Of a stretch of DNA of 64,000 nucleotides, positions 11,317 to 41,122 are shown in pieces. Both the position numbers and the translations under genes were made by a program. The number at the start of each line of letters is the position of its first letter. Position 1 is the stretch's first letter. Location of the stretch: contig NZ_JAGSHX010000001.1 of the NCBI RefSeq assembly GCF_018138715.1, forward strand, positions 682,001 to 746,000. Reading direction: 5' to 3'. The notes under the pieces were generated by a model. The model did no database searches, was not told the origin of the DNA, and saw only the letters and a list, made by a program, of their open reading frames with translations. This DNA comes from Streptomyces asiaticus (lineage in GTDB: Bacteria; Actinomycetota; Actinomycetes; Streptomycetales; Streptomycetaceae).

Positions 11317-11633
11317 TGCGCATGCTTCCCTTCGCCGAACATCTCGATCACCTGGTGCCCTTCGCCCTGTGGTCCCGGTTTTCCCGGCCTCCTTGGCAGG
11401 TCGTTACTCCTGCGACTACTACGGCACCTCCGTCGCCATAGGGCTCGCGCCCCGTAGGCGATCCCGTGGTACGTCTTCGCTGTACGTATCGAGCACGACG
11501 TAGGCCGTTCACTCATCTCCTTGACCACCCTCGTTGGGCGGCGTTTCGCGCCATGGAGGTTGCCTCGGCTTCACGGTTCATGGCCGGGCATGACGCGACG
11601 TCGGTTTCAGACGTTATTCCGACGGGTGCGCAC

Positions 11634-11772
11634 TTTCACCACCGGAGATTGAACTTCAAGCAATCCAGCCTTGGCCTTATCGTGCGGGCCTTGCGGCACC
11701 CCGCCCTGAACGTCTCCAGACGGCCGCCGCTTTCCTGACATGCTCTTGTCCCCTCGCGCTTTCGCGTCCAGG
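11634..11772 (-). other. Unassigned segment between group II intron and IS element
   Basis: About 140 bases with no supported gene. On the minus strand a short frame can be read into the intron start, but it has no recognised homology. It is either the 5' exon of the intron, whose original host gene was destroyed by the IS insertions, or the missing 5' part of intron domain I. Confidence 0.4.
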
Positions 11773-11775
11773 TAA

Positions 11776-12649: not shown

Positions 12650-12652
12650 TAA

Positions 12653-14050
12653 TACTGCAACGGTGCTTGCCGTGACTGATGGCCAGGTCGGTCGTTGGTG
12701 TGGGTGTGGGTGGGGACCTTGCTGATGTCAGGTTGTGGGCGGCTGAACTGGACGCTGTGCATGAGCGGTTCGTGCACCGTTTCAGCAGATCGGAGCCCCG
12801 GGAGTCGGCACTTGCTTATATGCGGGGGCTGATCGCTCCGCTGCAGCGGAAGAACGGCTGGACGCTGGCGGAGGAAGCCGGCCATACGGGCCCGGACCGT
12901 ATCCACCGGATGCTGAACCGGATCGAGTGGGACGCCGACGAGGTGCTCGACGACGTGCGTCAGTACGTGGTCGACAACCTCGGCGACCCCGATGCCGTCC
13001 TGGTCGTGGACGACACGGGCTTCTTGAAGAAGGGGACGCGGTCGGCCGGGGTGCAGCGGCAGTACTCCGGCACCGCCGGGCGCACGGAAAATTGCCAGGT
13101 CGGCGTCTTCCTCGCCTATGCCACCGACCGTGGGCGGACGCTGATCGACCGGCGTCTGTATCTGCCCGCCTCCTGGACCGACGACCGCGAAAGGTGCCGC
13201 CGGGCCGGCATCGAGGACGAGGTCGCCTTCGAGACCAAGGTGGCCATGGCCAAGGCGATGGTCCGCCGCGCGCTCGCGGACAAGATCCCGTTTCGGTGGG
13301 TGACCGCGGATGCCGCTTACGGGTTCAGCAAAGGCTGGCGGTCGGAGCTGGAGCGGGCGGACGTCTTCCACGTCATGGCCACCACCCGGCACGACACCGT
13401 GGTCACCCGCTGGGCGATCGACCATCCCGTCCACGACCTGTTTCCCGGTCTTGCCCGGCAGAAATGGAAGCGCCGTTCCTGCGGCACCGGGGCCCACGGC
13501 CTGCGGATCTACGACTGGGCCCGTGTCGAGGTGCGGCCCTGGCACCGGCCCGACCGCCGCCACTGGGTGGTCGCCCGCCGCAGCGTTGCCCGCCCGCAAG
13601 AGATCTCCTACTACATCGCCTACTGCCCCACCGAGACCACGCTCGATGATCTGATCCGCATTGCGGGCAGCCGGTGGGCCATCGAGGAATGCTTCCAGAG
13701 CGCGAAGCAGGAGTGCGGCCTGGACGACTACCAGGTGCGTCGCTATCCCGGGTGGCACCGCCACATGACCCTCGCCATGGCCGCCCATGCCTGCCTGAGC
13801 GTCCTGCGAGCCCGTGAGCTGGATGCCGGGAAAGCAGAAACGGATCCTCCCAGCTCATCCACCTCAGCCTCGCCGAGATACGACGGCTGATCACCCGACT
13901 CACCGACCGCCGACCCACACCCGTCGAGCACATCCTGCACTGGTCGACCTGGCGCCGACGACGACAACACCAGGCCCGCACCAGCCACTACAAACGACGC
14001 GGACACAGCCCCTGACCTGCCCACCAGTCACGACAAGCACCGTTGCAGTA
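12653..14050 (+). mobile_element. IS701-family insertion sequence (about 1.4 kb)
   Basis: Inverted repeats at 12653-12677 and 14026-14050 match at 24 of 25 positions (ends TACTGCAACGGTGCTTG). They bracket one transposase gene. The left repeat runs to within a base of the transposase start codon. I could not find a convincing target duplication: the left flank is now the IS5-type element, and the right flank is CTTAAG. Confidence 0.88.
12679..14015 (+). pseudogene. IS701-family transposase with C-terminal frameshift
   Basis: The intact frame (12679-13890, 403 residues) shows the family catalytic sites: Asp in AVLVVDDTGFLKKG, Asp in WVTADAAYGFSKGW and Glu in SRWAIEECFQSAKQECGL. Near 13845 the natural continuation jumps to another frame, where LIHLSLAEIRRLITRL and LHWSTWRRRRQHQARTSHYK can be read to a TGA at 14013-14015. 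The current ORF ends instead in an unrelated Ser-rich tail. All catalytic residues lie before the shift, so activity is not excluded, but the tail typical of the family is lost. Confidence 0.8.
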
Positions 14051-14056
14051 CTTAAG

Positions 14057-14862
14057 TCAGGTGACCCAGAAACATTCCTCCAAGTTCCTCCCGATTGGGT
14101 CGGGGATACAACGAAGCGCCTCACGGCGCACACCGGCCGTGCGGGCTTTCCCCGCAGCTCGGCTCAAGCAAGCCCCATGGGCTTCGCAGGTCAGCAGGGT
14201 GTGTTCCGTTTGCCGTCGTTCGCGTGGTGTTGACGATGGCATTCGGAGTGCACGAGGCAGAGGTTCGTTGATCTTGTCCATCGGCGGCGGCGCCTTCGTT
14301 CGGCGGCGGGTGTGCCAGTAGTCCATCAGGGACGGATCATCCGGAGATGCCGTCCCTTTGACCATCCGGTGTCGGACGATGCCCGTCCAGGCCAGCTTGG
14401 GGAGAAAGTCTCCGTCCGTAACCGCTCCCGGAACCTCAGGACGGCTGCCTTGCTGGGTTTGATGAGCAGCTTCTCCCCGAAGCGGCGCACTGTGAAGCCC
14501 AGGATCCGAACCCCTCATGGAGGTGCACGACTCGGGTCTTCGCCTCATTGAAGTGAAGTCCCCGGGGCCTGAGCCATTCGTCCAGCCGCGTCCTGACCAG
14601 GTGCGCTTGGTCTTCACCGTGGCAGAGCACGACGAAGTCGTCGGCGTAACGGATCGGGACCGGAGAGTCCGGCATCGACCAGGACTCGCGTCCTTTCTCG
14701 GTCGAGTACCGGCAGCCTGTTCCACTCCATGCAAGGCAATGTTCAGCAGCAGAGGGCTGATCACGCCGCCTTGAGGAGTTCCCTCCTCAGTTGGCGCGAA
14801 TCGACCGCGATCCATCACCCCGGCCTTCAGCCACCCGTGGACCTGTTCCCTGGGGGGAACTG
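14057..14862 (-). pseudogene. Decayed second group II intron maturase with domain V remnant
   Basis: A different maturase lineage from the one at 9526. Readable pieces on the minus strand are [38 protein letters not shown], then in another frame [14 protein letters not shown] and [19 protein letters not shown], and later [19 protein letters not shown]. The pieces are joined by frameshifts and internal deletions, and the N-terminal half is absent. A degenerate domain V (GAGCCG, then GCGGG-GAAA-GCCCGC) is visible at 14131-14165, so the 3' end of this intron is retained. The left neighbour is the IS701 element; the right side abuts a P-type ATPase fragment. Confidence 0.8.
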
Positions 14863-15222
14863 CCGCGCCTCCAGGGCGAAGGCCGTACGGTCGCGATGGT
14901 GGGCGACGGTGTCAACGACGCTGCCGCCCTCGCCACCGCGGACCTGGGCCTGGCCATGGGAACGGGCACGGACGCGGCGATCGAAGCGGGCGACCTCACC
15001 CTCGTACGTGGTGACCTCCGGGTGGCCGCGGACGCGATCCGGCTCTCCCGGAAGACCCTGGGCACCATCAAGGGCAATCTCTTCTGGGCCTTCGGCTACA
15101 ACGTCGCCGCCCTGCCCCTGGCCGCCGCCGGCATGCTCAACCCGATGATCGCGGGCGCCGCGATGGCGTCCTCCTCGGTCTTCGTGGTGACCAACAGCCT
15201 GCGGTTGCGGTCCTTCACATGA
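14860..15222 (+). pseudogene. C-terminal fragment of a heavy-metal P-type ATPase
   Basis: About 120 residues remain of a CopA-like pump. The hinge motif [21 protein letters not shown], with its adjacent [14 protein letters not shown], is followed by the last two membrane spans ([20 protein letters not shown] and the stretch ending [12 protein letters not shown]). It has its own stop. The phosphorylation domain, metal-binding N-terminus and first six spans are missing; the frame begins at the junction with the group II maturase remnant. It cannot pump. A separate N-domain fragment of such a pump lies at 24975. Confidence 0.85.
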
Positions 15223-15271
15223 ATTGCTGACAGGACAAAGAAGTGCCGCGTACACAGCGCCGCTCATAAGG

Positions 15272-15297
15272 GGTGCCCGGTCGGTGGACCGGGCACC
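15272..15297 (+). terminator. Strong hairpin terminator
   Basis: Perfect 11-base arms (15272-15282 and 15287-15297) around a four-base loop, 50 bases after the ATPase fragment stop. It probably served the original ATPase operon. The following bases to 15453 contain no supported gene. Confidence 0.7.
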
Positions 15298-15453
15298 TCG
15301 CCGTCGAGGCGGCAGTGCTCTTCAGGATCCGCCGTCGAGACCCGCGAACATGCAGCAGCGCAGCGCGAGTGCGACGAACGGGCACTGGGGAGTGTCTGTG
15401 GCACTGGGCACCGGGCTGTGTTCCCCGAGCCACCCATGCGATGCAGTCGCGAC

Positions 15454-15693
15454 CTATTTGGCGTCGAAGATACCGGCCCGCCATGCCCCGACAACGATGA
15501 CGCACATGCTTCCCGCCAGATAAAAGGGTGAATGGCCGCCCGGGAGGATCGTCACGGCATCGGTGAACTCCTCGATCCAGTTGACCACCAACGTGATCAG
15601 GCTGAGCCCGAGAAGGGACCACCCGACGATCCGAGAGGCCCGGGAGCGGGTGTGCAGTCGGCTCACCCTGATCTTTTGTGCTTCCTTGGTCAT
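15454..15693 (-). CDS. Small two-span membrane protein coupled to lgt
   Basis: A 79-residue protein with a basic N-terminus and two hydrophobic helices (IVGWSLLGLSLITLVVNWI and FYLAGSMCVIVVGAWRAGIF). Its ATG overlaps the TGA of lgt (15690-15693), so translation is coupled. I do not recognise a characterised family; similar small proteins often sit in streptomycete metal-resistance clusters. It may assist membrane insertion or lipoprotein handling, but that is only a guess from the neighbour. Confidence 0.7.
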   Translation of the reverse strand: MTKEAQKIRVSRLHTRSRASRIVGWSLLGLSLITLVVNWIEEFTDAVTILPGGHSPFYLAGSMCVIVVGAWRAGIFDAK

Positions 15694-25721: not shown

Positions 25722-27323
25722 TCAGCCGAGGGTGACCGAGCGGGCGAAGGTGGCGTCGGTCTCCTGGGCGATTTCGTTGAGTACGTCGGCGGGGACGTTG
25801 CTGTCGACGTTCAGGACGGCGAGCGTCTCACCGCCCGGCACGGACCGGGAGACCTGCATGCCGGCGATGTTCAGGCCCGACTCGCCGAGTACGTGGCCGA
25901 CGGTGCCGACGATGCCGGGCCGGTCCTTGTACCGCAGGAAGATCATGTGGTCGCTGACCGCGAGGTCGATGGTGTGCTGACCCACGGACACGATCTTCTG
26001 GATGTTCCTGGGGCCGGCCAGCGTGCCGGAGATCGCGACCTGCTCACCGCTGTTCAGGGTGCCGCGGACGGTCACCACATGGTGGTGGTCGGGGGATGTC
26101 GAGCTGGTGGTGTGGCGCACATCGACCCTGCGTTCCTGTGCGAGCAGTGGTGCGTTGACGTAGGAAACCGCCTGGTCGACGACGTTCTCGAAGACGCCCT
26201 TGAGTGCGGAGAGTTCCAGCACCTTGACGTTGTGCCGGGTGATGTCGCCGTGGACCTCGACATCGAGCCGGACCGCGACCTCGCCGGCCAGGGCGGTGAA
26301 GATCCGGCCGAGGTTCGCGGCGAGCGGCACGCAGGGGCGGACGTCCTCGGCGATGACGCCGCCCTCGACGTTGACCGCGTCCGGGACCAGCTCTCCCGCG
26401 AGCGCCAGCCGCACCGACTCGGCGACGGCGATGCCCGCCTTCTCCTGGGCCTCATCGGTCGAGGCGCCCAGATGTGGGGTGGCCACGACGTTGCCGAACT
26501 CGAAGAGCGGGGAGTCGGTACACGGCTCCTGGGCGAAGACGTCCAGTCCCGCGGCGGCGACGCGGCCTTCCTTGAGCGCGCTGGCCAGTGCCTGCTCGTC
26601 GACGATCCCGCCGCGCGCCGCATTGACGATCCGGACCTCGGGCTTGACCTTGTGCAGTGCCTCGTCGCCGATCAGGCCGACGGTCTCGGGCGTCTTCGGA
26701 AGATGGACCGTGATGAAGTCGGAGACCTCCAGCAGCTCGTCGAGCGTGAGGAGCTTGACGCCCAGCTGCGCGGCGCGCGCGGGCTGAACGTACGGGTCGT
26801 AGGCGACGACCTTCATGTCGAAGGCGGACATCCGCTGGGCGACCAGCACGCCGATGCGGCCGAGGCCGACCACACCGAGGGTCTTCTGGCTCAGCTCGAC
26901 GCCGGTGTACTTGCTGCGCTTCCACTCGCCGTTCTTCAGTGCCGTATTGGCCTGCGGAATGTTCCGCGCGGTGGCGAGGAGCAGGCCGCAGGCGAGCTCG
27001 GCGGCGGTGACGATATTGGACGTGGGAGCGTTGACGACCATGACGCCGGCCTTGGTGGCGGCGGAGACGTCGACGTTGTCGAGGCCGACCCCGGCGCGGG
27101 CGACGACCTTCAGCTTCTTGGCGGCGGCGATGGCCTCCGCGTCGACCTTGGTCGCGCTTCGCACCAGGATCGCGTCGACACCCGCGATCGCGGGGAGGAG
27201 TTCGGCTCGATCGGCGCCATCGCAGAGCCGGATCTCGAAGTCCGGGCCCAGGGCGCCGATAGTGGCGGGCGACAGCTTTTCAGCCAGGAGTACGACAGGT
27301 TTCGAGCTCACGGTGGATTTCAA
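25722..27323 (-). CDS. serA: D-3-phosphoglycerate dehydrogenase
   Basis: First enzyme of serine synthesis: oxidises 3-phosphoglycerate to 3-phosphohydroxypyruvate with NAD. The 533 residues are the long actinobacterial form. The NAD fold has GVVGLGRIGVLVAQR, catalytic Arg/Glu/His segments are in VNAARGGIVDEQALA and VVATPHLGASTDEAQ, and an intervening ASB domain precedes the C-terminal ACT domain (RYKDRPGIVGTVGHVLGE). Nothing looks damaged. It is 117 bases behind an MFS gene and a cysteine-synthase-like gene on the same strand, so it may be a pathway-specific copy rather than the housekeeping one. Confidence 0.95.
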   Translation of the reverse strand: MKSTVSSKPVVLLAEKLSPATIGALGPDFEIRLCDGADRAELLPAIAGVDAILVRSATKVDAEAIAAAKKLKVVARAGVGLDNVDVSAATKAGVMVVNAPTSNIVTAAELACGLLLATARNIPQANTALKNGEWKRSKYTGVELSQKTLGVVGLGRIGVLVAQRMSAFDMKVVAYDPYVQPARAAQLGVKLLTLDELLEVSDFITVHLPKTPETVGLIGDEALHKVKPEVRIVNAARGGIVDEQALASALKEGRVAAAGLDVFAQEPCTDSPLFEFGNVVATPHLGASTDEAQEKAGIAVAESVRLALAGELVPDAVNVEGGVIAEDVRPCVPLAANLGRIFTALAGEVAVRLDVEVHGDITRHNVKVLELSALKGVFENVVDQAVSYVNAPLLAQERRVDVRHTTSSTSPDHHHVVTVRGTLNSGEQVAISGTLAGPRNIQKIVSVGQHTIDLAVSDHMIFLRYKDRPGIVGTVGHVLGESGLNIAGMQVSRSVPGGETLAVLNVDSNVPADVLNEIAQETDATFARSVTLG

Positions 27324-27440
27324 TCCCTACTGGTTCGTTGAGGAACGGCCGCCCCGGCGGCCGCATACGGTGGCAGTTCCGGCGCATGGCCGACAGGGAG
27401 GACGAAGGAAAGCTCGTCCCCCCTGCCGCAGGACCATGGG

Positions 27441-28769
27441 TCAGGCAGACACCGACTCGGGCTGTGTCTCGCGTACCGGCGGCGCGAGGCGGCCGGTGCG
27501 GTGCAGTCCGTACAGGGCTGCGGCACAGGCCAGGCCGAGTGCGCAGAACGCGATCCACGGGAGCGCGGAGACGCCGGCCGCGCGGGCGGCGTCCAGAGAG
27601 GCCCCGGTCAGCAGGTTCCCGAGCGTGATGCCGACGCCGCAGATGGTGTTGTAGAGCCCGTAGTGGGTGGCGACCAGGCGGTCACCGGAGAGCCGGACGA
27701 TGGTGTCCATCTCGAACGGGTAGGCGATCATCGTCCCCACCGCCAGGAGCAGAGCGGAGAGCGCGGGCGGCACGGCCGCGAGCAGCCACAGCCTCACTCC
27801 GCCCTCCGGCACGGGCACGGCCGTCGGTACCAGCAGGGGCACGAACGCCACGCCCATGGTGAGCAGGCCCCAGGCAAGGGCCCGGCCCGGCTCCATGCGG
27901 GCCTTGCACCACGCGGTCATCTTGGTCTGGAAGAGGATCGTGCTCAAGCCCGAGACAGCGAAGAGCATCGCCACCGCCGCTGTCCCGGACGTTCCATCGC
28001 CACCCAGACGCCGCACTTCCAGTGGCAGGGCGAGATAGACCTGGAACTGCATGACGTAGAAGCCGATCATGGCGATCGAGAACAGCAGGAACGGCCGGTT
28101 GGCCAGGATGGTGCGCCACTGGGACAGCACGCCGTCCTGTTGGCCGCTTCCCTTGGTGGCCGGCGCGTCATTTGCCCGGCGGGCGGGCAGACTGCGGAGC
28201 TGCACGATGCTCAGCAGCGCGAAGATCCCGGCCGACACCAGGCAGGCGACGCGGAAGTCGACACCGGTGAGCACCATGCCGACGAGTGGGCCGAGCAGGA
28301 TGCCGGCCTGGTAGAAGATGTTGAACAGCCCGAACGCTTCGACCCTGCGCTCCCCGGCGTCCGCCGCCAGATAGGCCCTCACCGCCGGGTTGAACAGGGC
28401 GCCCGCCAGTCCGGTCGCCGCGGATGCGGCGAGCAGCGCGGGCAGCGCGTCCACCAGTCCGAGGGTCGCGAAGCCGACGATGCGGAGCATCAGCCCGGCG
28501 ATGATCAGCGGCTTGTAGCCGAGCCGGTCGGCCAGGGTTCCGCCGACCAGGAACATCCCCTGCTGGCTGAAGTTGCGTATGCCGAGCACGAGTCCGACGG
28601 CCCAGCCGGCCAGCCCGACCGTGCCGGACAGGTGCGCGGCCAAGTACGGCATCAGCATGTAGAAGCCGAGGTTGATGGAGAACTGGTTCACCATCAGCAA
28701 CTGGACGCTGCGCGGGTAGGAGCGCATCTGCGCCCAGGTTCCCCCGGAACGTGACTGCCGGTCCATCAC
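27441..28769 (-). CDS. MFS transporter (12 spans)
   Basis: A 442-residue major facilitator. The loop 2-3 motif appears as [14 protein letters not shown] and there is a long central loop (near residues 200-220). It is most like drug or metabolite exporters of the DHA1 group. The ATG overlaps the stop of the PLP enzyme gene (ATGA, 28766-28769), so both are made together. It probably exports the product of the PLP enzyme or an analogue; the substrate is not deducible. Confidence 0.88.
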
Positions 28770-29911
28770 CGGTCTCCCTCCTCCCGGGCGCCGAACTCAG
28801 CCAGCTCTGCGGCGTCGTGCTCCTGCGCCGGGTCGGACAGGGTGAGCGGGTCGACCACGGTGGTGCACCGGGTCCAGCGGCTGACTTCCTTCTCGTCCAG
28901 ACGGCCGATGGTTTCCGGTTCGACGGGCGGCGGGGAGTCGAGCAGACCGTGGGCGGCGCAGTAGTCGTCGTCGTAGACCGTGCCGAGATAGCGTTGCGGG
29001 CCGTCGGGGAAGATGGCCGCGATCTTCGTGTCCGCGGGCAGGGTACGGGCCAGCCAGCCCGCCACCAGGGCGACCGCGCCGACGCTCCAGCCGCCGGTGG
29101 CGTAGTGGGAGGCGGCGAGCCGGCGGCAGGTCCACACCGCATCGGCCGGTGTCACCCAGTGCACCTCGCTGAAATTGTCGTAGGCGACGTTGCGGGGGTA
29201 GATGCTTGAACCCAGGCCGCGCATCAGCCGGGTGCGGGCCGGCTGCCCGAAGATGGTCGACCCGATGGTGTCGACGCCGACGAGCTTCAGCTCCGGGTAC
29301 AGGGTCTGCAACACCCGGGAGACGCCGGCGGAGTGGCCGCCGGTACCCACGCTGCACACCAGCACGTCGATGTGGCCCAGTTCGGAGGCCAGCTCCAGCG
29401 CGAGTGGGGTGTAGGCGGTGGTGTTGTCGGGATTGTTGTACTGGTCGGGGCACCACGAGCCGGGGTGCTGCGCCATGAGCTGAGCCACTCGCTCGCGCCG
29501 TGCCTGTTGCCAGCCGCCGGTGGGGTGGGGCTCGGGGACGACGTCGACCTGGGCTCCGTAGGTGGTCAGCAGCTGGGTCATGGACCGCTCCAACCCTGGG
29601 TCGGTGACCAGGGTGACGGGGTGGCGGTAGACCATGCCGGCCAGAGCCAGTCCCAGGCCGAGGGTGCCACTGGTGGATTCGATGATCCTGGCGCCGGGGC
29701 GCAGATCACCACGGGCGCGGGCCCGCTCGACCATGTACAGGCCGGGCCGGTCCTTGATCCCGCCGGGGTTGAAACCCTCCAGCTTCGCCCAGAACCCCCG
29801 GTCAGCGGGGGTGAGGGGATCGGAGATCCGGAGAACCGGGGTGTCGCCCACGAGCCCGGACAGGGCCGAGCGGGCGGGAAGTGTGATCTCGGTTGTGGTC
29901 TGCGGGTTCAT
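28766..29911 (-). CDS. PLP-dependent cysteine-synthase-family enzyme
   Basis: A fold-type II PLP enzyme of 381 residues. The Schiff-base Lys is K53 in [10 protein letters not shown], the substrate-binding loop is [13 protein letters not shown] (TSGNTG in CysK), and the phosphate cup is [12 protein letters not shown]. The changed loop (Thr-Leu for Asn-Thr) and a C-terminal extension of about 50 residues set it apart from CysK/CysM. Relatives make cysteine from O-acetyl- or O-phosphoserine, or 2,3-diaminopropionate precursors (SbnA type). With serA in the same cluster, O-phosphoserine is an attractive substrate; this is inference. Confidence 0.88.
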
Positions 29912-32684: not shown

Positions 32685-33812
32685 TCAGTGCAGGGTGGCG
32701 ACCTGGTCGGCGGCGAACGGGATCAGCGCCTCCGTGTCCCCGGTGAGGACCTTGCGAGCCCACTCCGGGTCGGCGATCAGGGCCCGGCCGATCGCGATCA
32801 GGTCGAACTCGTCCCGCTCCAGCCGGTCCAGCAGGTTTTCGATGCCCGCCACCCCGGTCCGGCTCCCGCTCTCGAACCCCGGCTTGAACGCCTTGTCCAG
32901 GCCGACGGAGCCGACGCTGATGGTGGGCTTGCCGGTGAGCTTCTTGGTCCAGCCCGCGAGATTCAGGTCCGAGTCCTCGAACTCCGGCACCCAGTACCGG
33001 CGGGTGGAGGAGTGGAAGGCGTCCACCCCGGCCTCCGCGAGCGGGGTGAGGACCGCCTCCAGCTCCTGCGGGGTGGTGGCCAGCCGCGCGTCGTAGTTGT
33101 TCAGCTTCCACTGCGAGGTGCGGAAGACGATCGGGAAGTCGGCGGAGACGGCCTTCCGGCAGGCGGCCACGATCTCGGCGGCGAACCGGGTACGGGCGAC
33201 CGGGTCACCGCCGTAGCCGTCGGTGCGGCGGTTGGTGCGCTCCCACAGGAACTGGTCGATCAGAAGGCCATGGGCGCCGTGCACTTCGACGCCGTCGAAG
33301 CCGGTGCGCTCGGCCGCGGCGGCGGCCTCGGCGAAGGCGGCGATCACCGCGTCCAGGTCGGCCTGGGTCATGGCCTTACCGGCCGGGGCGCCGTCCAGCC
33401 CGATACCCGACGGGCTGACCGTCGGGGCGTCGGGGACCGGGCCCGCGCCCTCGGGGCGCTGCACCCCGACGTGGCAGATCTGCGCCATGATCCGGCCGCC
33501 CGCGCGGTGCACCTCCGCCACCACGTTCTTCCAGCCCGCCAGGGCGTCCTCGCCGTGGAACAGCGGCGCCCGGATGCTGTCCCCCGCCGCGTCGTGACGG
33601 ATGTACGTTCCCTCGGTGACGATCAGCCCGACCCCGCCGGCCGCCCGGCGCGCGTAGTACCGCGCCACGTCGGCACCGGGGACGCCGCCCGGCGAGAAGT
33701 CGCGCGTCATCGGCGCCATGACGATCCGGTTCGGGACGGTGAGCCCGCGCAGGGTGAACGGGCGGGACAGGGTCTGAGCCGCGCGGTCGGCGGCAGCGCT
33801 GCTGGCAGGCAC
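32685..33812 (-). CDS. Old Yellow Enzyme-family ene-reductase
   Basis: FMN-dependent NAD(P)H:flavin oxidoreductase that reduces activated C=C bonds, about 375 residues. Motifs: PNRIVMAPMTRDFSPGG, the active-site region VHGAHGLLIDQFLWERTNRR with TDGYGGD, and the FMN phosphate site IAIGRALIADPEW. I prefer GTG 33812 because GAGGAG lies seven bases upstream. A longer form from ATG 33902 is open but lacks a ribosome site and adds only a disordered Ser/Thr-rich leader. Promoter region 33813-34072 carries operator site B, so electrophile-induced expression through HxlR is likely. Confidence 0.93.
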   Translation of the reverse strand: MPASSAAADRAAQTLSRPFTLRGLTVPNRIVMAPMTRDFSPGGVPGADVARYYARRAAGGVGLIVTEGTYIRHDAAGDSIRAPLFHGEDALAGWKNVVAEVHRAGGRIMAQICHVGVQRPEGAGPVPDAPTVSPSGIGLDGAPAGKAMTQADLDAVIAAFAEAAAAAERTGFDGVEVHGAHGLLIDQFLWERTNRRTDGYGGDPVARTRFAAEIVAACRKAVSADFPIVFRTSQWKLNNYDARLATTPQELEAVLTPLAEAGVDAFHSSTRRYWVPEFEDSDLNLAGWTKKLTGKPTISVGSVGLDKAFKPGFESGSRTGVAGIENLLDRLERDEFDLIAIGRALIADPEWARKVLTGDTEALIPFAADQVATLH

Positions 33813-34045
33813 GTGAATGCTCCTCGAAGTAGGACGACGTTCCGCGGAGGGCCGGCTCTCGGAGGCGGCGGCGATGTCGGTGGTGCTGGACGTGTCGGGC
33901 ATGATCGATGTGTCTTTCGTGCATTCGGTTGGTTTGGTCTGACTCCCCGACGCCGAGGCTCGTGCGCCCGAACCCGGGACGGGGCTTGACGGCTAGGCCG
34001 GTTGCCTACGCCAGAACCGAGGGAACATGCCGTTCCTTCCCACGG

Positions 34046-34194: not shown

Positions 34195-34320
34195 CACGAA
34201 AGGTCGAGGTCAACGGGCAGGCCAATGGAGCGAAATCAACGGTGTTGACGTGGATCCGCTCCGAGCAGCCGCGATGGGTTTCCGAACGACACACACGGAA
34301 ACCGTCTTGCGGCAGGTGAG

Positions 34321-34740
34321 TCAGGCCGTTGCGGCGTCGCGCTCGACGAGCTGAAACTGAATCCCCTCCGAGGTGTCGGGCCGGGAAAAGGCATTGAGGT
34401 TGCCGTCGATCGCCACGGGCTGAGGAGCGACGAATTCGACGCCGAGGCCACGAAGCGTCTGCATGATCTCGGTGATGCTGTCGTCGACCTCGACTGCGAT
34501 GTGCTCGATGCGAGCCTTGTCGCCGACGCGGTCGCCGAGACGGCGTCGACGGGCCTCGCTGGTGGTGGGTTCGATGAGCTCGATACGAGCCCCGTCACCC
34601 ACCCGGTAGAACGCGGCTTTTACCTTGCGGTCGGGCAGCTCGCGTTCGAACTCGAGGGTGAGACCGAGGCTTTCAAGGAATTTCTTCGCGCGAGGCAGGT
34701 CGTGGACCACGACACCGATATGGTCAATGCGCTTGAGCAT
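34321..34740 (-). CDS. VOC-superfamily (glyoxalase/epimerase-like) protein
   Basis: A 139-residue paired beta-alpha-beta-beta-beta protein. Candidate metal ligands are His in RIDHIGVVVHDL, Glu in RIELIEP, His in RIEHIAVEVDD and Glu in FQLVERD, the order seen in methylmalonyl-CoA epimerase and glyoxalase I. It starts 16 bases after the MFS stop, with GAAGGGA upstream, and is the last gene of the operon. It may isomerise or open a product of the radical SAM pathway, or detoxify an aldehyde; the reaction is unknown. Confidence 0.85.
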   Translation of the reverse strand: MLKRIDHIGVVVHDLPRAKKFLESLGLTLEFERELPDRKVKAAFYRVGDGARIELIEPTTSEARRRRLGDRVGDKARIEHIAVEVDDSITEIMQTLRGLGVEFVAPQPVAIDGNLNAFSRPDTSEGIQFQLVERDAATA

Positions 34741-34756
34741 GAGCGTATGGGTCCCT

Positions 34757-36025
34757 TCAGGAGGTCTGCGATGCGGTGGGGTTCGGGGCGGCCTGAGTGC
34801 GGTGCAGTTGGGTAGCCGTCAGGATCAGAATGACCACCAGGAAGAGCCAGCCGACCGTGTAGCCGGTGGCGCCGACGAGCGCGCCGAACAACGGTGGCAT
34901 GGTGGCGGCGATGATCTGATTCAGGGTGATCGCGAAGCTGATTGTGGAGGCGACCGCATGCTGGGGGGCGATGTCGGTGATCTGTACGAGGTAGAGCGGG
35001 TACCAGCCGACGCTGAGCAGGCCCAGCAGCGTGCAGAGCGTGTAAGCGAGCACGCGAGGCGAGCCGGGGGTCAACGCGCTGAGCGCGGTGATCGGGATCG
35101 TGGAGAAGGCGAGAAGCCACTTCAGTGAGCGCATCCGCATGCCGGGCCAGAAACGGTCACTGATCCAGGCGAGACCGATCCGGCCGGCGATCCCGGCAGC
35201 CTGGGCCACCGAGTACATGAAGCCGGCCGTGACAATCGGGATGCGTAGGTGATCGTTGAGGAAGATCAAGATCTGCACGGAGAACACGTACTGGAACGCG
35301 GCCAAGGCGAGTCCGGCGATGAGAAGCGAGCGGACAGCCCTGTCGCGCACGAGGCCGAGGATCAAACGGCGCAGGTGCACCGGCGTCTTTTGCGCACTCG
35401 TCGTGGCGTCACCCGTCTGGCGGTAGAAGGTGGCGAAGACCACGCCCCCGAGGATGCCGGCCGCTCCCTGGACGATCATGGCCGCGGTCCAGCCGTGGTG
35501 CAGGGCGACGGCGGGCAGGATCGCCCCGGCGATGGAGGCACCGATCGGCAGACCCGCTTGGCGTATACCGGTGGCCATGCCTCGTAGGCCGGGTTCGAAC
35601 CATCGGGTGATGGCTCGCTGCCCGCCAGGCAGAATAGATCCGTAGAAGGCGCCCATCACCAGGATGAACAGCAGCAGCACAGGGTAATTGCGCCCCGCGG
35701 CCGCGGCGATGAACGCCGTGACGCCCATGGCGATCATCGTAAGAGAGACGACCCAGCGCTCTCCGTAGCGGTCGATGGCCCGCCCGATGATCAGCATCGA
35801 GGCGATCGGCCCGGCCTGAATCGCCGTGGCTGCGAGAGCGGCGGTGGCCGCTGACAGGTGGTAGGTGTTCTTCCAGAACGGCAGCAGGACACTGACGCCG
35901 GAGTAGACGATCGAGCCGGAAGTCAGCGCGGTAACGGCGACGGCGAGCACGACCCACTTGTACGAGCCCGCTGAGTGGGCAGCTCGCTCGGCGGGCGCCG
36001 CCTCGCCGACCTCTTGCGCGGTCAC
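34757..36025 (-). CDS. MFS transporter
   Basis: A 422-residue, 12-span transporter. Loop 2-3 reads IIGRAIDRYGERWVV and the middle loop is short and Thr/Gln-rich. The sequence YGSILPGGQRAITRWFEPGLRG resembles the oxalate/formate and monocarboxylate branch of MFS rather than drug pumps. The ATG overlaps the cupin stop (ATGA). It could import a carboxylate substrate or export the pathway product. Confidence 0.87.
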   Translation of the reverse strand: MTAQEVGEAAPAERAAHSAGSYKWVVLAVAVTALTSGSIVYSGVSVLLPFWKNTYHLSAATAALAATAIQAGPIASMLIIGRAIDRYGERWVVSLTMIAMGVTAFIAAAAGRNYPVLLLFILVMGAFYGSILPGGQRAITRWFEPGLRGMATGIRQAGLPIGASIAGAILPAVALHHGWTAAMIVQGAAGILGGVVFATFYRQTGDATTSAQKTPVHLRRLILGLVRDRAVRSLLIAGLALAAFQYVFSVQILIFLNDHLRIPIVTAGFMYSVAQAAGIAGRIGLAWISDRFWPGMRMRSLKWLLAFSTIPITALSALTPGSPRVLAYTLCTLLGLLSVGWYPLYLVQITDIAPQHAVASTISFAITLNQIIAATMPPLFGALVGATGYTVGWLFLVVILILTATQLHRTQAAPNPTASQTS

Positions 36026-36495
36026 GCGCCGGGCTCCGATTGCCTGGAGGCCAGGTTCCCCAGCTCGGCCAACAGCGGGATGTTCATCAGGTTCAGCAGG
36101 ACGAGGCTCTGGCTCGTGGGGTTGTTGAAGTGGTGCAGCGACCAGGCCGGGACGAGCAGAAGGTCCCCGAGGCTCAGATCGGTTGTCTCGCTGGTGTCGT
36201 GGAAGGTGACAGTGCCGGTGCCGGCTTGCACGACGAACAGGTGATACCAGGTATGCGCGTGCGGGGTGGTGTTCTTCCCAGCGGGGATGACCTGGTAGGC
36301 GACGGCGACATCACGGATGATTTCGGCGCTGCCGTTCGGCAGAGACAGGGCGAGCGTGCCGCGTTCGGGGTGCTCTGTGTCGCTGAGCCGGCCGGAAGTG
36401 TCCGCCCACCGCCACACCACCGGCTCGGGCAGCAGGGTGTCGTAGCGCTTTTTGAAGTCAGGGTATGGAAACTGACCGCCGCTGCCGATCGGCAC
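36022..36495 (-). CDS. Cupin with an all-histidine metal site
   Basis: Single-domain cupin of about 157 residues. The GAGGAGG ribosome site directly abuts an ATG at 36504, so GTG 36495 (nine bases on) is the likelier start. Motif 1 is PHAHTWYHLFVVQAGTG: the usual Glu after HxH is replaced by His. Motif 2 is GDLLLVPAWSLHHFNN with its His. Four His and no Glu suggests an Fe(II) or other dioxygenase/isomerase-type site. It overlaps the FAD protein gene by 38 bases. Confidence 0.83.
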   Translation of the reverse strand: MPIGSGGQFPYPDFKKRYDTLLPEPVVWRWADTSGRLSDTEHPERGTLALSLPNGSAEIIRDVAVAYQVIPAGKNTTPHAHTWYHLFVVQAGTGTVTFHDTSETTDLSLGDLLLVPAWSLHHFNNPTSQSLVLLNLMNIPLLAELGNLASRQSEPGA

Positions 36496-38320
36496 GGGAA
36501 TCATCCTCCTCGAGGATCGCGAGTTGCTGCCACATGTCGCACACGGCGGCGTTCGCCTCGTCCGTGAATCGCGACTTCTGGCCGTCCCTGGGCAGGTAGT
36601 ACGTGTAGTACCGCGGCCCTTCGACGGGGTATCCGACAGCCCATACACCTGTGAGCGGCGTCCCGGCCTTGGCGATGACGCGGCCGCTGGGCGTAATGTC
36701 CACACCGCCCGGCTCATAGGAGCCGTTGCTATAGGGACGGATCAAACCGCGTGCCAGCAGGCGGGCGGTCAGCGGGGAACTGTCCGTCTCGGGGTGGAAC
36801 AAGTCCAGGCGCGCCGCCACTAAGGCGTCGGCGTATCGGACGGTAGGGCCGTTGGTGAAATGGGTTTCAACGGTGAACCGGGCCGTCTCAGGGTCAGGGA
36901 TGATACGGCAGCCCGGTCCTCCGGCCAGATCGACCACACCAGCGTTCATCAGGGCGAGAAGTTCGTAGTTACGGCGGCGGGGTGGCCCGAACGAGATCTT
37001 GTTCATGAGCGGCACCCATCGGGTGTTGAACACCCGATGCGACTCCGGTGTCAGGCCGGAGAATTCGACGACCTCGCGCAGGCTGGCGCGGATGTCCCGG
37101 ATGGCGTCGGTGGCAGCTTTGACAGGGCTCGTCCGGTTGCCTTCCTCGGCGTGCTTCAGGTCCTCGGTGACGAACGCCGTGAAGAAGGCGCGGAAGGCGT
37201 CCAGATCCCTGAAGCTCTTGCCGACCAGCGGGTCGACGATGGCGTCGACGGCGGCCTGATCGGCCGCTGCGAATTCGTACCGGTCGGGCCGGATATGACG
37301 TTGCTCCAGCGTGGAGCGGTAAACGTAGCCCATTTCCCGACGTAGGAGCGGCACGGCTTCCGCCTCGAAGTCGATCTGCGCGCTGCCGCGCTTCCGCCTC
37401 GCGTGCTCACGCAATCTGCGGATGGCCTCGAGGGTGAAGAAGTGCGGCTGGTAGGCGCCGGCGAGGCCCTTCTGGTTGATGCCGCGTGCGGCGGCGGGCA
37501 GGCACTGACGGGAGAACAACAGGATGCTCGGCTCGCGCCCGCACGGTATGTAGCGCATGTCGTGGCCGTCGCCCTCGAAACGTCCGCCCCTGCCGATGGT
37601 GAGGTGAGCGATGACGTCGTGGGCGGTCAGCCCGAAACCCTGCACGGCCACCGTGGCCCCGGGAGCGATGCGCCCGAGCTTGTCGACCGGGTAGCAGTCC
37701 GCCAGGTAGGCGAGGCGGTCATTGCGGCCCTGGTGTTCGCTGACGAAATTCTCGAACCGGATGTCCTCGTCGGTGGGAGTGCGCCGGGAGTGCCCGGTGG
37801 CGAGGAACAGGAAATCGGAGGGAATCTCGTAGCCGTTCTCGGTCCGCACCACGTACCTGCCGGACGGGGAGAGCTCCTCCATGTCGATGGCGCGAGCCCG
37901 GTGGTGCACCACTCGCACGCCCGTGGGCAGCGAACTGAGGGTGCGGTCGGACGCGAAGGAGAGATACTCGCCGAGCAAGTTGCGCGGCAGGTAGTCGTGT
38001 GGCCCGATCGGCTCCCCGCCTGCCTCGCCCGTGCGGTAGTAGCCACCTGCGAAGCGGCGGTAGCCAACCTGCTGGGCCCAATCGGTGAACGACGGGCCGC
38101 CACCGCCGGGGAACATGGTGAGCTGGCTGGCGAGCGTGTTGGTGAGCAGATGGTCGGGCTGCCGGTTGGAGTGTGCCCCTTGCCCGGTGTCGCCGGGGTC
38201 GACAAGGTGGACGTCCAGCTCAACGCCCTCGGGGAGCTGGTGGGCTCGCTGGGCGATGTGCTGGAGGATGCCGAGGCCGCGCGGCCCCAGCCCGATGATC
38301 GTGACCTGAACAGCCCTCAC
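36458..38320 (-). CDS. Large FAD/NAD(P)-binding oxidoreductase (PF13454 type)
   Basis: A 620-residue flavoprotein. The FAD fold is at the N-terminus (VTIIGLGPRGLGILQHI). A second nucleotide region is near GATVAVQGFGLTAHDVIAHL, and C-terminal GVWAVGYPVEGPRYYTYYLP closes over the flavin. The GxGPRGL pattern marks the NAD_binding_9 group, distantly like lysine/ornithine N-hydroxylases. The substrate is unknown. The ATG overlaps the stop of the MBL gene (ATGA). Placed after a radical SAM aminomutase-like enzyme, N-oxygenation or oxidation of an amino acid is a reasonable but unproven idea. Confidence 0.83.
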   Translation of the reverse strand: MRAVQVTIIGLGPRGLGILQHIAQRAHQLPEGVELDVHLVDPGDTGQGAHSNRQPDHLLTNTLASQLTMFPGGGGPSFTDWAQQVGYRRFAGGYYRTGEAGGEPIGPHDYLPRNLLGEYLSFASDRTLSSLPTGVRVVHHRARAIDMEELSPSGRYVVRTENGYEIPSDFLFLATGHSRRTPTDEDIRFENFVSEHQGRNDRLAYLADCYPVDKLGRIAPGATVAVQGFGLTAHDVIAHLTIGRGGRFEGDGHDMRYIPCGREPSILLFSRQCLPAAARGINQKGLAGAYQPHFFTLEAIRRLREHARRKRGSAQIDFEAEAVPLLRREMGYVYRSTLEQRHIRPDRYEFAAADQAAVDAIVDPLVGKSFRDLDAFRAFFTAFVTEDLKHAEEGNRTSPVKAATDAIRDIRASLREVVEFSGLTPESHRVFNTRWVPLMNKISFGPPRRRNYELLALMNAGVVDLAGGPGCRIIPDPETARFTVETHFTNGPTVRYADALVAARLDLFHPETDSSPLTARLLARGLIRPYSNGSYEPGGVDITPSGRVIAKAGTPLTGVWAVGYPVEGPRYYTYYLPRDGQKSRFTDEANAAVCDMWQQLAILEEDDSRADRQRRSVSIP

Positions 38321-39171
38321 GAGATCACCCGCTCGCGCAGTTCCAGCGCCGCCGGGTCGGTGTACGGGGCTATGGGTTCCTCGTGCAACCGCACCCAGCG
38401 GGGGTCGTCCTCTACCTGGGGGAAGCGGGTGGCGACCTGAGGATCATGACCGGGGATGATGTGGTCGACGCCGTCCGCCAGATCTTCGACGGTCTCGTAC
38501 GCCTCGACCATGGAGGCGAGGTGGTCGAGGATCGGGAACGGGGCCCGGCGACGGATGTTTGCCCACAGGTGCGACGAATCGCTCGCCAACACGACCCAGC
38601 CGCGCTTTGTGTGAACGCGTACTACTTGAAGGCCGGGGGTATGTCCAGGGGCCGGGTGCACCTCGACGCCGGGCACAATCGTAGCCGGGCCCTGGTGCAG
38701 GGTGAGGCGCTCGTCGAACAGCAGCCGAATCGCCGCGTTCACATCCTCCGCCTCGAAGGGGCGGCGGGGTGCGGATTGGCGCATGGCGCGGCTGGTGCAG
38801 AACGCGAGTTCCGGCTCTTGGAGATGAACGCGAGCCGTGGGGAAGGCGGCGAGGTGACCGGCATGGTCCCAGTGCATGTGCGTGATCAGCAGATGCGACA
38901 CGTCGGTGGGATCCATGCCGAGACCGGCCAGGGCCTCGACGGGGTGGTGAAGTTGCTCGCGGCCACGCCGCGCACCCGTGTGCGCGGTAAACCCGGTATC
39001 GACGACGATCACCTGATCCTGACCTCGGATGACCCAGATGTAGAAGTCGAAGCCGACCGGAGTGTCGGTGGCGCAGGGGTCGTCGGCGAACAGGAAGTTC
39101 TCCCGCGCGAGTCGCCCCGTCTGAGTCCCGAACCTGAGCGCGAGAAGTTCGTGGGTTGGCGGCCGGTTCAT
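38317..39171 (-). CDS. MBL-fold hydrolase, N-acyl-homoserine-lactonase-like
   Basis: A 284-residue metallo-beta-lactamase-fold protein. The dinuclear zinc motif HMHWDHAGH is at residues 98-106, with further ligands in PAPGHTPG, ASDSSH and IIPGHDP. The YIWVIRG...VVDTGF start is typical of lactonase-like members. ATG 39171 overlaps the radical SAM stop (ATGA). It may hydrolyse a lactone or lactam in the pathway. Quorum-signal quenching is possible by family, but the operon context argues for a metabolic role. Confidence 0.87.
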   Translation of the reverse strand: MNRPPTHELLALRFGTQTGRLARENFLFADDPCATDTPVGFDFYIWVIRGQDQVIVVDTGFTAHTGARRGREQLHHPVEALAGLGMDPTDVSHLLITHMHWDHAGHLAAFPTARVHLQEPELAFCTSRAMRQSAPRRPFEAEDVNAAIRLLFDERLTLHQGPATIVPGVEVHPAPGHTPGLQVVRVHTKRGWVVLASDSSHLWANIRRRAPFPILDHLASMVEAYETVEDLADGVDHIIPGHDPQVATRFPQVEDDPRWVRLHEEPIAPYTDPAALELRERVIS

Positions 39172-40505
39172 GCGCCCACCACCGTCAGTTCGCGAGCCTC
39201 GGGCGCCGGGAGCGGCAGTTCGTCCTCGAAGAAGAACTTCTCCGCCCCGAACGCCGGGGTGAGCTGGTCGAACCAGGTCGCGTCCGGATCGTATCTGGCG
39301 TAGAACGGCCGACGCGCCCAGTCCGCATGACGCCCCTGAAGGAACTGCAGGGCGAACACCTTCTCGCCGCGGATGGTGGGGGTGCCGTCGATGAGAACCT
39401 TGCCCGGAAACGCGCTCATCGACGGGCCGCGCACGGTGCGGGCGAGGCCGGAGACCCGCTGGTATGCGTCGCGGAAGATCTCGTACGCCCTCACCAGGGG
39501 AATCTCGAAGTAGGAGCGGGCGCCGGTATCGCGTTCGACGAACATGTAGTACGGGATGGCGCCCAGCCGCACCCCCGTCGTCCACAACTCCCGCCACGCC
39601 TCGGCGTTGTCGTTGATGTGCCTCAGTATCGGCGACTGGAGGCGCGTGTTCGCACCTGTGGCGATGATCCGCTTCAGGGCGGTCTGTGCGATGTCAGGGC
39701 GCAGCTCGGCGGGGTGGTTGTAGTGGCCCATGATCGCCAGGTGCTTACCAGCGGTGACGACCCGCTCGAACAGCCGGATGAGCTCGTCGGCATCCCGGTC
39801 GGTGACGAACCTTTGGGGCCAGTAGGCGACCGATTTGGTGCCGATCCGGATGTTCTGGATGTGTTCGAACTCCGGTGCCAGGAGTGGTTCGATATAGCGG
39901 GCGAGAGTGTTTGTCCGCATGATCAGCGGGTCGCCGCCGGTGATCAGGACGTCGGTGACCTCCCGGTGGCGAGCGAGGTAGGCGGTCAGGCCCTGGGCAT
40001 CCTCGGCGGCGAAGGCGAGTTCGCCGTCGCCGACGAACTGCGGCCAGCGGAAGCAGAACGTGCAGTAGGCGTGGCAGGTCTGCCCGTGCTTAGGGAATAA
40101 CAGTATTGTCTGGGAGTATTTGTGCTGCATCCCTGACATTTCCTTGCCGTCCAACTCAGGTACGTTGTGGGTTTGCTGGCCGGCCGGGTGGGGGTTCATC
40201 CGCTCGCGGAGCTTCCCCGCGTGAAGCGCGATCTGTCTCTTGTCGCCAGCGGCGATGACATCCCGTAGGGTGGCGTAGTCGGTGTCGTCCAGCATGGCCC
40301 GGTGGGGGAAGTTCAGCCGGAAGATGGGGTCGTCCGGGATGTTGTCCCAGTTGATGAGTTCGTCGAGCACGTACTGATTGGTGCGGAACGGGAGAACCTG
40401 GGAGACCACAGTGACGGCCTCGCGGAGTTCCTCAGGCACCCGCCCCCATTGCGGGGCGCGTTGAATTGTTTTTCCATTGTAGGGCGTGAACTTGCCGACA
40501 CTCAA
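39168..40505 (-). CDS. KamA-like radical SAM protein (lysine 2,3-aminomutase family)
   Basis: About 445 residues from TTG 40505. The [4Fe-4S] cluster motif is CHAYCTFC (C144, C148, C151 from this start), followed by LITGGDPLIM, the GGE-like SAM motif. KamA enzymes move an amino group from C2 to C3 using PLP. Here the usual PGGGGK lysine loop appears as only AFPGKVLIDG, so the PLP site is atypical and the substrate may differ from lysine, glutamate or arginine. TTG is preferred because AAAGGGA precedes it and it overlaps the upstream small ORF stop (TTGA). A longer GTG-started version reaches 40568. Confidence 0.9.
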   Translation of the reverse strand: MSVGKFTPYNGKTIQRAPQWGRVPEELREAVTVVSQVLPFRTNQYVLDELINWDNIPDDPIFRLNFPHRAMLDDTDYATLRDVIAAGDKRQIALHAGKLRERMNPHPAGQQTHNVPELDGKEMSGMQHKYSQTILLFPKHGQTCHAYCTFCFRWPQFVGDGELAFAAEDAQGLTAYLARHREVTDVLITGGDPLIMRTNTLARYIEPLLAPEFEHIQNIRIGTKSVAYWPQRFVTDRDADELIRLFERVVTAGKHLAIMGHYNHPAELRPDIAQTALKRIIATGANTRLQSPILRHINDNAEAWRELWTTGVRLGAIPYYMFVERDTGARSYFEIPLVRAYEIFRDAYQRVSGLARTVRGPSMSAFPGKVLIDGTPTIRGEKVFALQFLQGRHADWARRPFYARYDPDATWFDQLTPAFGAEKFFFEDELPLPAPEARELTVVGA

Positions 40506-40708
40506 TTCGAGTCCCTTTCCCTGTTCGAAACCGAGCGGTGTGGGCGAGCACCAATCCGAACCCTCCACCCCCGGCCGGGATCATCCTCCGCAGTTCCGGA
40601 AGCGTGCGCTGCTTGAGGGTTCACCGAGTCGGGAGCAGTGGCGGCAACGCAGGTCACAGCTACTGCCGCACATGCCATGCCGGCGATTGGTATTGCGGTT
40701 TTATGCAC
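40502..40708 (-). CDS. Candidate small secreted peptide coupled to the radical SAM gene
   Basis: A 68-residue ORF from GTG 40708 (GGGAGG two bases ahead; GTG 40747 would add 13 residues). It has a Lys-containing start, a hydrophobic core (AIPIAGMACAAVAVTCVAAT) and a polar tail ending in basic residues: the layout of an exported peptide. Its TGA overlaps the TTG of the KamA-like gene, and it is first behind the promoter at 40862-40889, which is why I list it. It could be a leader for coupling, a precursor peptide, or a secreted protein. No homologue recognised. Confidence 0.4.
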   Translation of the reverse strand: MHKTAIPIAGMACAAVAVTCVAATAPDSVNPQAAHASGTAEDDPGRGWRVRIGARPHRSVSNRERDSN

Positions 40709-40861
40709 GACCTCCCTCAGGTCCCACTTATGAGCGAAGTTGGTCACCAGGCATACCGTCCGGCGCACCACGATCCTGCTTGAACAATGAGACACCTGTC
40801 GCGGTCGCAAGTGATCGTGCGTGCGACTGACGTAAGCCCGCCACAGGGCAAAAGGCATAAT

Positions 40862-40889
40862 TTAGTACCAATCGGTCCACTGCCGTCAA
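40862..40889 (-). promoter_or_regulatory. Vegetative-type promoter of the radical SAM operon
   Basis: TTGACG (40889-40884), a 16-base spacer, then TACTAA (40867-40862), in an AT-rich patch of the minus strand. It starts just past the strong hairpin at 40898, so the operon has its own promoter. The predicted 5' leader to the small ORF is about 145 bases, long enough for regulation. Confidence 0.6.
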
Positions 40890-40897
40890 CGTCAATA

Positions 40898-40928
40898 CAA
40901 CAAGGCCGGGCGTGGCCCGGCCTTGTTG
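40898..40928. terminator. Strong hairpin between LuxR gene and radical SAM operon
   Basis: Perfect 14-base arms at 40898-40911 and 40915-40928 around a GTG loop, with AT-rich outer ends. It lies 195 bases past the LuxR-type gene stop, insulating that gene from the downstream operon. The bases 40929-41122 hold no supported gene. Confidence 0.8.
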
Positions 40929-41122
40929 CGCTCGTTGTCGAATGTGATCGCTGGTTCAGCGGTAAGTGAGGCCGATGCGGATCACGGTGTTGTTCGGATC
41001 GCTGCCATAGGGGGAGTGGCCCTGGCCGGCGCCTCGGTGGCCAGGCGCCACGGTCTCGAACTCCGACCTCAGGATCTCGCGGTGCCGCCGCATGTGGGCG
41101 CGCAACCCCTCGACGTCCGAAT

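Follow-up and report, generated by a model that had tools for sequence, protein, structure and literature searches.

A conserved Streptomyces operon that groups a KamA-like radical SAM enzyme with a relative of the L-aspartate N-hydroxylases

The stretch of DNA considered here (the window, 64,000 nucleotides of Streptomyces asiaticus) is part of a 1.32-Mb contig, C1, of a genome of 11.9 Mb in 6 contigs, and the system in question is a set of six minus-strand genes packed into positions 34321-40505. In order of transcription these are KAM-MBL-FAD-CUP-MFS-VOC, that is, a KamA-like radical S-adenosylmethionine (SAM) enzyme followed by an MBL-fold hydrolase, a flavoprotein, a cupin, a transporter and a VOC protein. 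An earlier note on this DNA had assigned all six families, and the six-gene minus-strand operon is confirmed as such. The cluster's probable function is to move the nitrogen of an amino acid and afterwards oxidise it, giving a small exported compound. Its genes and the features at its borders are as follows.

39168..40505, minus strand: KamA-like radical SAM/pyridoxal phosphate (PLP) aminomutase homologue (KAM), 445 aa from TTG 40505, an inferred start
38317..39171, minus strand: MBL-fold hydrolase of the acyl-homoserine lactone (AHL) lactonase type (MBL), PF00753
36458..38320, minus strand: FAD/NAD(P) flavoprotein (FAD), placed in a sister clade of the L-aspartate N-hydroxylases, PF13454
36022..36495, minus strand: monocupin (CUP) resembling class III ring-cleaving dioxygenases, PF07883
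34757..36025, minus strand: MFS transporter, PF07690
34321..34740, minus strand: VOC protein, glyoxalase/methylmalonyl-CoA epimerase-like, PF13669
41123..42160, minus strand: LuxR-type helix-turn-helix regulator, upstream of the operon on the same strand, PF00196
34165..34195 (about), minus strand: putative 14-bp GC-rich hairpin downstream of VOC, with no T-run
40899..40930 (about), minus strand: putative strong hairpin between the LuxR-type gene and the operon

The coupling of these genes is largely as the earlier note described it, with corrections of detail. Only the KAM/MBL junction is a 4-base ATGA overlap; the MBL/FAD and CUP/MFS junctions, which had been given as ATGA, are 4-base GTGA overlaps. 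The 38-base overlap of FAD with CUP holds provided that the cupin starts at GTG 36495, and the 16-base gap between MFS and VOC was correctly noted. The single promoter that had been proposed was not shown, the one sigma-70-like match (40505-40476) lying at the KamA start itself and comparing with 0.8 expected in shuffles. As for the proposed hairpin terminator, the hairpin after VOC is there, within sequence that S. rugosispiralis matches at 89%, but it lacks a T-run and is absent from the list of the terminator scan, which gave 2 matches in the region vs 4.4 expected in shuffles; one of these two partly coincides with the hairpin at 40899-40930. The radical SAM reading frame opens at GTG 40568, and TTG 40505 was taken as the start instead, both because the resulting 445 aa is the length of the 96% homologues (P0001 and P0002) and because bases 40550-40717 are unmatched in the nearest relatives, at loci L133 and L039. 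A small open reading frame, 40502-40858, overlaps this unmatched segment and contains, by eye, a signal-peptide-like stretch. DNA similarity to S. rugosispiralis (L133) is unbroken over 34309-40549 at 97%, and to L039 it covers 34323-40549 at 94%; since this similarity spans the operon without a break, the operon is real beyond chance. The L133 contig stops about 0.7 kb beyond VOC, and thus the downstream limit rests on L039, L040 and L134. The OYE-family gene at 32685-33902 was considered as a further member and rejected, there being no OYE match in the flanks of those three loci. TTA codons occur in KAM, FAD and the gene for the LuxR-type regulator. None of the six proteins reaches any NCBIfam model cut-off in the Pfam/NCBIfam scan.

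For KamA, a sequence search of the PDB returns a sole match, the lysine 2,3-aminomutase 2a5h. The protein scores 126 bits on TIGR00238 (cut-off 199.2), 101.3 bits on the lysine 2,3-aminomutase model TIGR03820 (cut-off 525.4) and 84.3 bits on the glutamate 2,3-aminomutase model TIGR04368 (cut-off 650). In lysine 2,3-aminomutase, D293 and D330 bind the epsilon-amine of lysine, while K337 binds PLP and R134 the carboxylate; in glutamate 2,3-aminomutase, Lys and Asn occupy these two specificity places. Among the 89 KamA locus rows of at least 60% identity, which were not de-duplicated, the CxxxCxxC radical SAM motif and the equivalents of R134 and K337 are kept in every row, and D293 is replaced by Arg and D330 by Ser, again in 89/89 (D293 and R134 were placed by the printed 2a5h alignment, D330 and K337 by ungapped count from G321). 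The same pattern (C, C, C, R134, R, S, K337) is found in all 120 KamA proteins listed, of 7998 matches. At 50-60% identity (32 rows) the first specificity place is still Arg throughout and the second is Val in 20, Ser in 11 and Ala in 1; three rows below 50% have no Lys at the K337 place. Judged by these residues, the double replacement would count against lysine as the substrate; an acidic side chain would be consistent with it, though not proven by it.

The operon flavoprotein, which databases name only “FAD/NAD(P)-binding protein” or similar, has as its sole sequence relative in the PDB the L-aspartate N-hydroxylase 8cp2 of Streptomyces sp. V2, matched over residues 4-591 of 620 (E 2.7e-64, 221 bits). 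In a 43-row tree, from which FAD_L209 was left out and for which a warning was given on some long branches, the 24 operon proteins group together, apart from the 19 other rows, with support 99/98. By alignment and tree the flavoprotein is a member of the aspartate N-hydroxylase family, in a sister clade, which sharpens the generic flavoprotein of the earlier note. Equivalents of R13, R266, R409, R412 and R416 are present in 25/25 orthologues and those of N62 and R577 in 24/25, the two misses being gaps (L209 and L205). Asn413, however, is kept in 0/25, with Ala (9), Glu (14), Gln (1) or Asp (1) in its place, vs 7 of the 10 usable paralogues; this table leaves out the L039 flavoprotein and, for wrong frames or misalignment, 12 of 22 paralogue rows, which were also excluded from the tree. 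This residue stands at the back of the chamber by which aspartate enters, and section 8 of the structure paper (PMC10404684) reports that an N413E variant loses aspartate hydroxylation and retains NADPH oxidase activity. An aspartate N-hydroxylase proper was rejected as the identity of the operon flavoprotein on account of the replacement of this residue in every orthologue. Three further homologues of the family lie elsewhere in the window's genome (G000), on contig C6 near 6.39, 7.11 and 7.20 Mb; two of them keep Asn413, and the third is misaligned.

The remaining proteins are less sharply classified. MBL falls below the curated cut-offs of the AidB, AiiA, AttM and AhlS models (90 bits on lactonase_AidB vs 360), and its metal-site residues H98, H100, D102, H103, H177, D198 and H242, comprising HxHxDH and further ligands, are invariant in 8 sequences. 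A profile search with the cupin matches gentisate dioxygenases and the monocupin 5-nitrosalicylate dioxygenase 8ch4 (residues 19-168 of 208, 60 bits). H79, H81, H121 and Q68, together with an extra H85, are invariant in 14/14 sequences, and by the printed 3bu7 alignment the first four occupy the iron and substrate places; the 14 sequences, which were not aligned residue by residue to 8ch4, have no invariant Arg column (the substrate Arg of the 5-nitrosalicylate enzyme is Arg56). In the published 5-nitrosalicylate route (PMC10306065), ring fission leads to a lactone, nitrite being lost as it forms, and next comes a lactone hydrolase. This may be taken as a chemical parallel, and no more, to an operon that combines a cupin with an MBL hydrolase and an N-oxygenase. 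Profile matches of the VOC protein are 3oa4 and methylmalonyl-CoA epimerases.

Of 296 relatives searched, 6, one of them being the window's genome, have KamA at 71% identity or more (the next being 57%), and the five other genomes also have the adjoining MBL and FAD genes; a FAD orthologue at 59% or more was found in 8 of 392 Streptomyces genomes, again counting the window's (next by score, 39%), and all 8 carry the KamA-MBL-FAD triad. The nearest named relative is S. rugosispiralis, with a KamA 96% identical. The loci fall into two lineages. Conservation of the six-gene order, which had been proposed as a check on the operon, is complete in lineage I (the window, L039, L040, L133 and L134, the last from Kitasatospora mediocidica), with a LuxR-type regulator upstream, and the KamA-MBL-FAD core extends through Streptomyces and Kitasatospora to 12 proteobacterial loci. 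In all seven loci of lineage II (L041, L042, L043, L116, L117, L135 and L137) the core is followed by a cupin, VOC, a DHA2-type MFS gene and a second cupin. A LysR-type gene was matched in 5 of these seven loci and found by clustering in all 7, and the DHA2-type proteins of the seven are best matched by efflux models. On the other side of the operon, lineage II has in 7/7 loci a divergent pair, FD2-MFS, in which FD2, a second flavoprotein, keeps Asn413 in every case; FD2 of L042 scores 620 bits against 8cp2, and from its sequence FD2 is likely an aspartate N-hydroxylase proper. VOC is present in all 12 distinct Streptomycetaceae loci. Between regulator and KamA, L040 and L134 have an aspartate aminotransferase gene (PF12897, 586 bits; 75% alike), and L039 has a 90-residue remnant of one at 9012-9203. 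At L042, the DHA2 MFS, cupin and LysR genes are listed twice in tandem with equal identities (9830-12825 and 12588-15583), either a real duplication or an assembly artefact, and the second cupin of lineage II (L042:11359-11733) reaches 137 bits on an (R)-mandelonitrile lyase model whose cut-off is 140.

Beyond the family, a scan of GTDB species genomes was assessed for the best 80 of at least 589 KamA stretches, so that the counts lean to near KamA relatives: 17 loci are KAM-MBL-FAD, 2 are KAM-FAD with no MBL detected, and 61 are neither. Twelve of the 17 triads are proteobacterial (Ramlibacter, Pantoea, Rahnella, Burkholderia, Caballeronia, Comamonas, Billgrantia, Paraburkholderia and a gammaproteobacterium). 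VOC occurs in none of these twelve; GST occurs in 7 and a GFA-family gene in 3, one or the other being present in 8. Of the remaining four loci, L139 and L140 lack both, and the contigs of L205 and L209 are short. In two of the 22 loci tested, both gammaproteobacterial, MBL and FAD form one open reading frame of 918-922 aa:

L170:11387-14143: fused MBL-FAD gene
L198:11390-14158: fused MBL-FAD gene

Distances among KAM, MBL and FAD correlate over 21 loci (Spearman 0.71-0.90, with 0/999 permutations as high), a correlation that partly reflects species kinship, near relatives being among the loci. The window's operon represents a single form of a broader module, whose MFS type and sixth gene (VOC, GST or GFA) vary. 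L208 and L210 have a 55% aspartate aminotransferase homologue about 8 kb from KamA. An enlarged cluster surrounds the core in Pantoea agglomerans (L154:5238-16408) and Rahnella bruchi (L157), in the order 2-hydroxyacid dehydrogenase, second KamA-like protein, ATP-grasp-like protein, a 404-aa protein with no Pfam match, KamA-MBL-FAD-cupin-MFS-GST, and is a candidate for a peptide-linked product; the L154 GST reaches 176 bits on the maleylacetoacetate isomerase model (cut-off 171). The earlier note's statement that no NRPS, PKS or ligase is present holds for the six genes and is qualified by this ATP-grasp, ligase-like neighbour. The Pantoea antibiotic PNP-3 was considered as what the L154 cluster makes and is not supported: it is described with eight genes and as confined to Pantoea, while the L154/L157 type occurs also in Rahnella (PNP-3 itself was not compared). 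A plasmid search with L154 DNA gave no match; one with the window operon gave 29 records of 60-80% identity, all of which cover less than 80% of the query. The flavoprotein is found in plasmids at E 1e-90 in a single Burkholderia record, and the Mycetohabitans and B. arboris plasmid loci have KamA and no match to MBL or FAD. The 61 loci with neither partner are also proteobacterial, mainly Oxalobacteraceae (e.g., L142), with KamA at 63-69%; they have MFS downstream in 41 and an FAA hydrolase-type gene in 46, and divergent chemoreceptor-type (49) and Cache-domain-type (48) genes adjoin, one example per non-MFS family having been checked by Pfam. Among the 50-60% KamA relatives, the examples L055, L057, L046 and L045 lie near NRPS, aminotransferase, or PlsX-like and ArgRS-like genes.

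The simplest assembly of these parts is a stepwise pathway. KamA, with a 4Fe-4S cluster, SAM and PLP, would act on an amino acid whose side chain is acidic and transfer its amino group from C2 to C3, in the simplest case converting L-glutamate to beta-glutamate. Using NADPH and O2, the flavoprotein would then N-hydroxylate the resulting amine; like its aspartate-specific relatives, it may do so more than once and reach the nitroso or nitro stage. MBL may open or close a ring ester formed from the N-hydroxy or a later product, and would work directly with the flavoprotein, as the fused MBL-FAD genes suggest. An oxidative step would fall to the Fe(II) monocupin, MFS would export the product, and VOC, or GST/GFA in 8 of the 12 proteobacterial triads, may isomerise or neutralise a reactive intermediate. 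A core of three enzymes (amine shift, N-oxygenation, and hydrolysis or ring closure) is suggested because MBL and FAD are fused and co-inherited and KamA is their neighbour in each triad, and the MFS genes, TTA codons and varying regulators give the module its biosynthetic flavour. The idea of an acidic substrate draws on the family of the flavoprotein, the KamA residues and the aspartate aminotransferase, whole or decayed, in 3 of the 5 lineage I loci; these are three independent hints, each indirect, and the Glu at place 413 in most of the proteobacterial enzymes urges caution.

Several observations weigh against this pathway or parts of it. The Glu at that place might accommodate a second amine, and an acidic substrate is therefore not obligatory; R276, another residue in contact with aspartate, is variable among the orthologues; and 3 of the 10 usable paralogue rows likewise lack Asn413, so its loss is not unique to the operon. 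KamA does not reach the cut-off of any of the three 2,3-aminomutase models (lysine, arginine and glutamate). The aspartate aminotransferase is absent from the window, from L133 and from all seven lineage II loci. A CUP-type cupin was not found in 7 of the 12 proteobacterial triads, of which L139, L140, L170, L196 and L198 have another cupin instead and L205 and L209 are short contigs. Finally, neither MBL nor FAD is present in the flanks examined, some of them short, at 61 of the 80 KamA loci, so KamA works elsewhere too. On balance, we favour tentatively, at somewhat less than even confidence, a conserved module that makes a small N-oxygenated beta-amino acid by the steps proposed, with substrates and product inferred. 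A bolder version is doubtful, though worth stating: a new class of pathway, in two phyla, in which a dedicated N-oxygenase receives its substrate from a radical SAM 2,3-aminomutase that acts on acidic amino acids, and the exported products are antimetabolites. These might be N-hydroxy- or nitro-beta-amino diacids, such as 3-hydroxyamino- or 3-nitroglutarate, or an isoxazolidinone closing from it, and in the one Streptomyces lineage with an extra aspartate N-hydroxylase homologue that enzyme could add a second nitro diacid.

Gene order does not fix the order of action, and the flavoprotein could come first, acting on an alpha-amino acid other than aspartate, with KamA then shifting an N-oxygenated or an unrelated substrate or carrying out some other radical chemistry; the product would still be a small N-oxygenated metabolite. 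The many KamA genes of this subfamily with neither MBL nor FAD, and the NRPS, aminotransferase and ArgRS genes beside its 50-60% relatives, lend this some weight. Nevertheless, the PLP lysine, cluster cysteines and carboxylate arginine, kept in all 89 rows, are what would be expected of a true 2,3-aminomutase, and we consider this ordering unlikely, if far from negligible. A quite improbable alternative is that the operon serves a nitrous-acid or N-N bond pathway as an accessory, an offshoot of the aspartate-nitrosuccinate route supplying nitrite or an N-nitroso donor. Homology of the flavoprotein to 8cp2 and the divergent, Asn413-bearing FD2 of seven Streptomyces loci are what would be expected of it, but N413 is lost in the operon flavoprotein itself, and no CreD-like nitrosuccinate lyase is found among the genes of the window operon and ten L041-L043 proteins scanned (wider flanks were not scanned). 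Moreover, no second flavoprotein was matched in the flanks examined at L039, L040, L133 and L134, and the FD2 homologues of the window's genome lie on another contig, C6.

The cupin raises a different prospect, namely that the operon serves to break down or detoxify an N-oxygenated or aromatic compound, with MFS as importer, the cupin cleaving, GST or VOC isomerising and MBL opening a lactone. Its likeness to gentisate and 5-nitrosalicylate dioxygenases fits, as does the passage from ring fission to lactone to lactone hydrolase in the 5-nitrosalicylate route (PMC10306065), and the maleylacetoacetate isomerase-like GST, with the FAA hydrolase beside other KamA genes, echoes the gentisate route. 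An aminomutase and an N-hydroxylase, however, build nitrogen chemistry rather than remove it; the sporadic occurrence in Streptomyces, the TTA codons and the efflux-model-like DHA2-type MFS of seven loci also tell against catabolism, which we rate as improbable. Least credible of all is a lysine-derived product, with KamA a lysine 2,3-aminomutase giving beta-lysine. It has in its favour the database name “lysine 2,3-aminomutase” and the sole PDB match, 2a5h, and against it the replacement of both lysine-binding aspartates in every close row and a score of 101 bits where the model's cut-off is 525; on these residues and the curated cut-offs, lysine 2,3-aminomutase was rejected as the identity of the window's KamA, and such names within the subfamily are made doubtful.

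The favoured pathway, in which the amine shift precedes N-oxygenation, thereby pairs two families, the KamA-like radical SAM aminomutases and the aspartate N-hydroxylase family, and text searches did not find this pairing: no description of it was found in the open-licence literature, though one may exist elsewhere. A term search for KamA, aminomutase or radical SAM found none of them in a review of N-N bonds or in a paper about diazo capture. The earlier note's remark that no described cluster has this gene set agrees with full-text searches of open-licence papers, which returned none. If true, the pathway would offer a short route to N-oxygenated beta-amino acids, would give a likely family role to a flavoprotein now carried as an “FAD/NAD(P)-binding protein”, and would make the loss of Asn413 a handle for separating aspartate-specific from new-substrate N-hydroxylases. 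Elsewhere in the window, a PALP-family enzyme gene and an MFS gene with a 4-base overlap lie beside D-3-phosphoglycerate dehydrogenase (25722-29911, minus strand), possibly a second small amino-acid-type operon; a group II intron reverse transcriptase (9526-11316) and a DDE transposase (12679-13890) are also present.

As far as searched, then, the operon is a conserved and so far undescribed combination of known enzyme families, each of which resembles a characterised system up to a point. With the AHL lactonases (AidB, AiiA), MBL shares the fold and the metal-site residues; it differs in missing their curated cut-offs and in being fused to a flavoprotein at two loci. The cupin is, like 5-nitrosalicylate 1,2-dioxygenase (8ch4; PMC10306065), a single-domain protein with the three His and the Gln expected, but the match is 60 bits only, there is the extra His85, and the operon has no aromatic pathway genes. 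KamA has the radical SAM motif, carboxylate Arg and PLP Lys equivalents of lysine 2,3-aminomutase (KamA/AblA; 2a5h), from which it departs in having Arg and Ser for D293 and D330 and in lying far below the curated cut-off. Set beside the glutamate 2,3-aminomutases (TIGR04368), it scores 84 bits where the model's cut-off is 650, yet has the same combination of a basic and a polar residue at the two specificity places. Lastly, the flavoprotein is set apart from the L-aspartate N-hydroxylases of CreE/FzmM type (8cp2, 8cp5; PMC10404684) by the absence of Asn413 in 25/25, a variable R276, a tree group of its own and an operon with no nitrosuccinate lyase gene, and is joined to them by homology over residues 4-591, by the Arg cluster and by Asn62.

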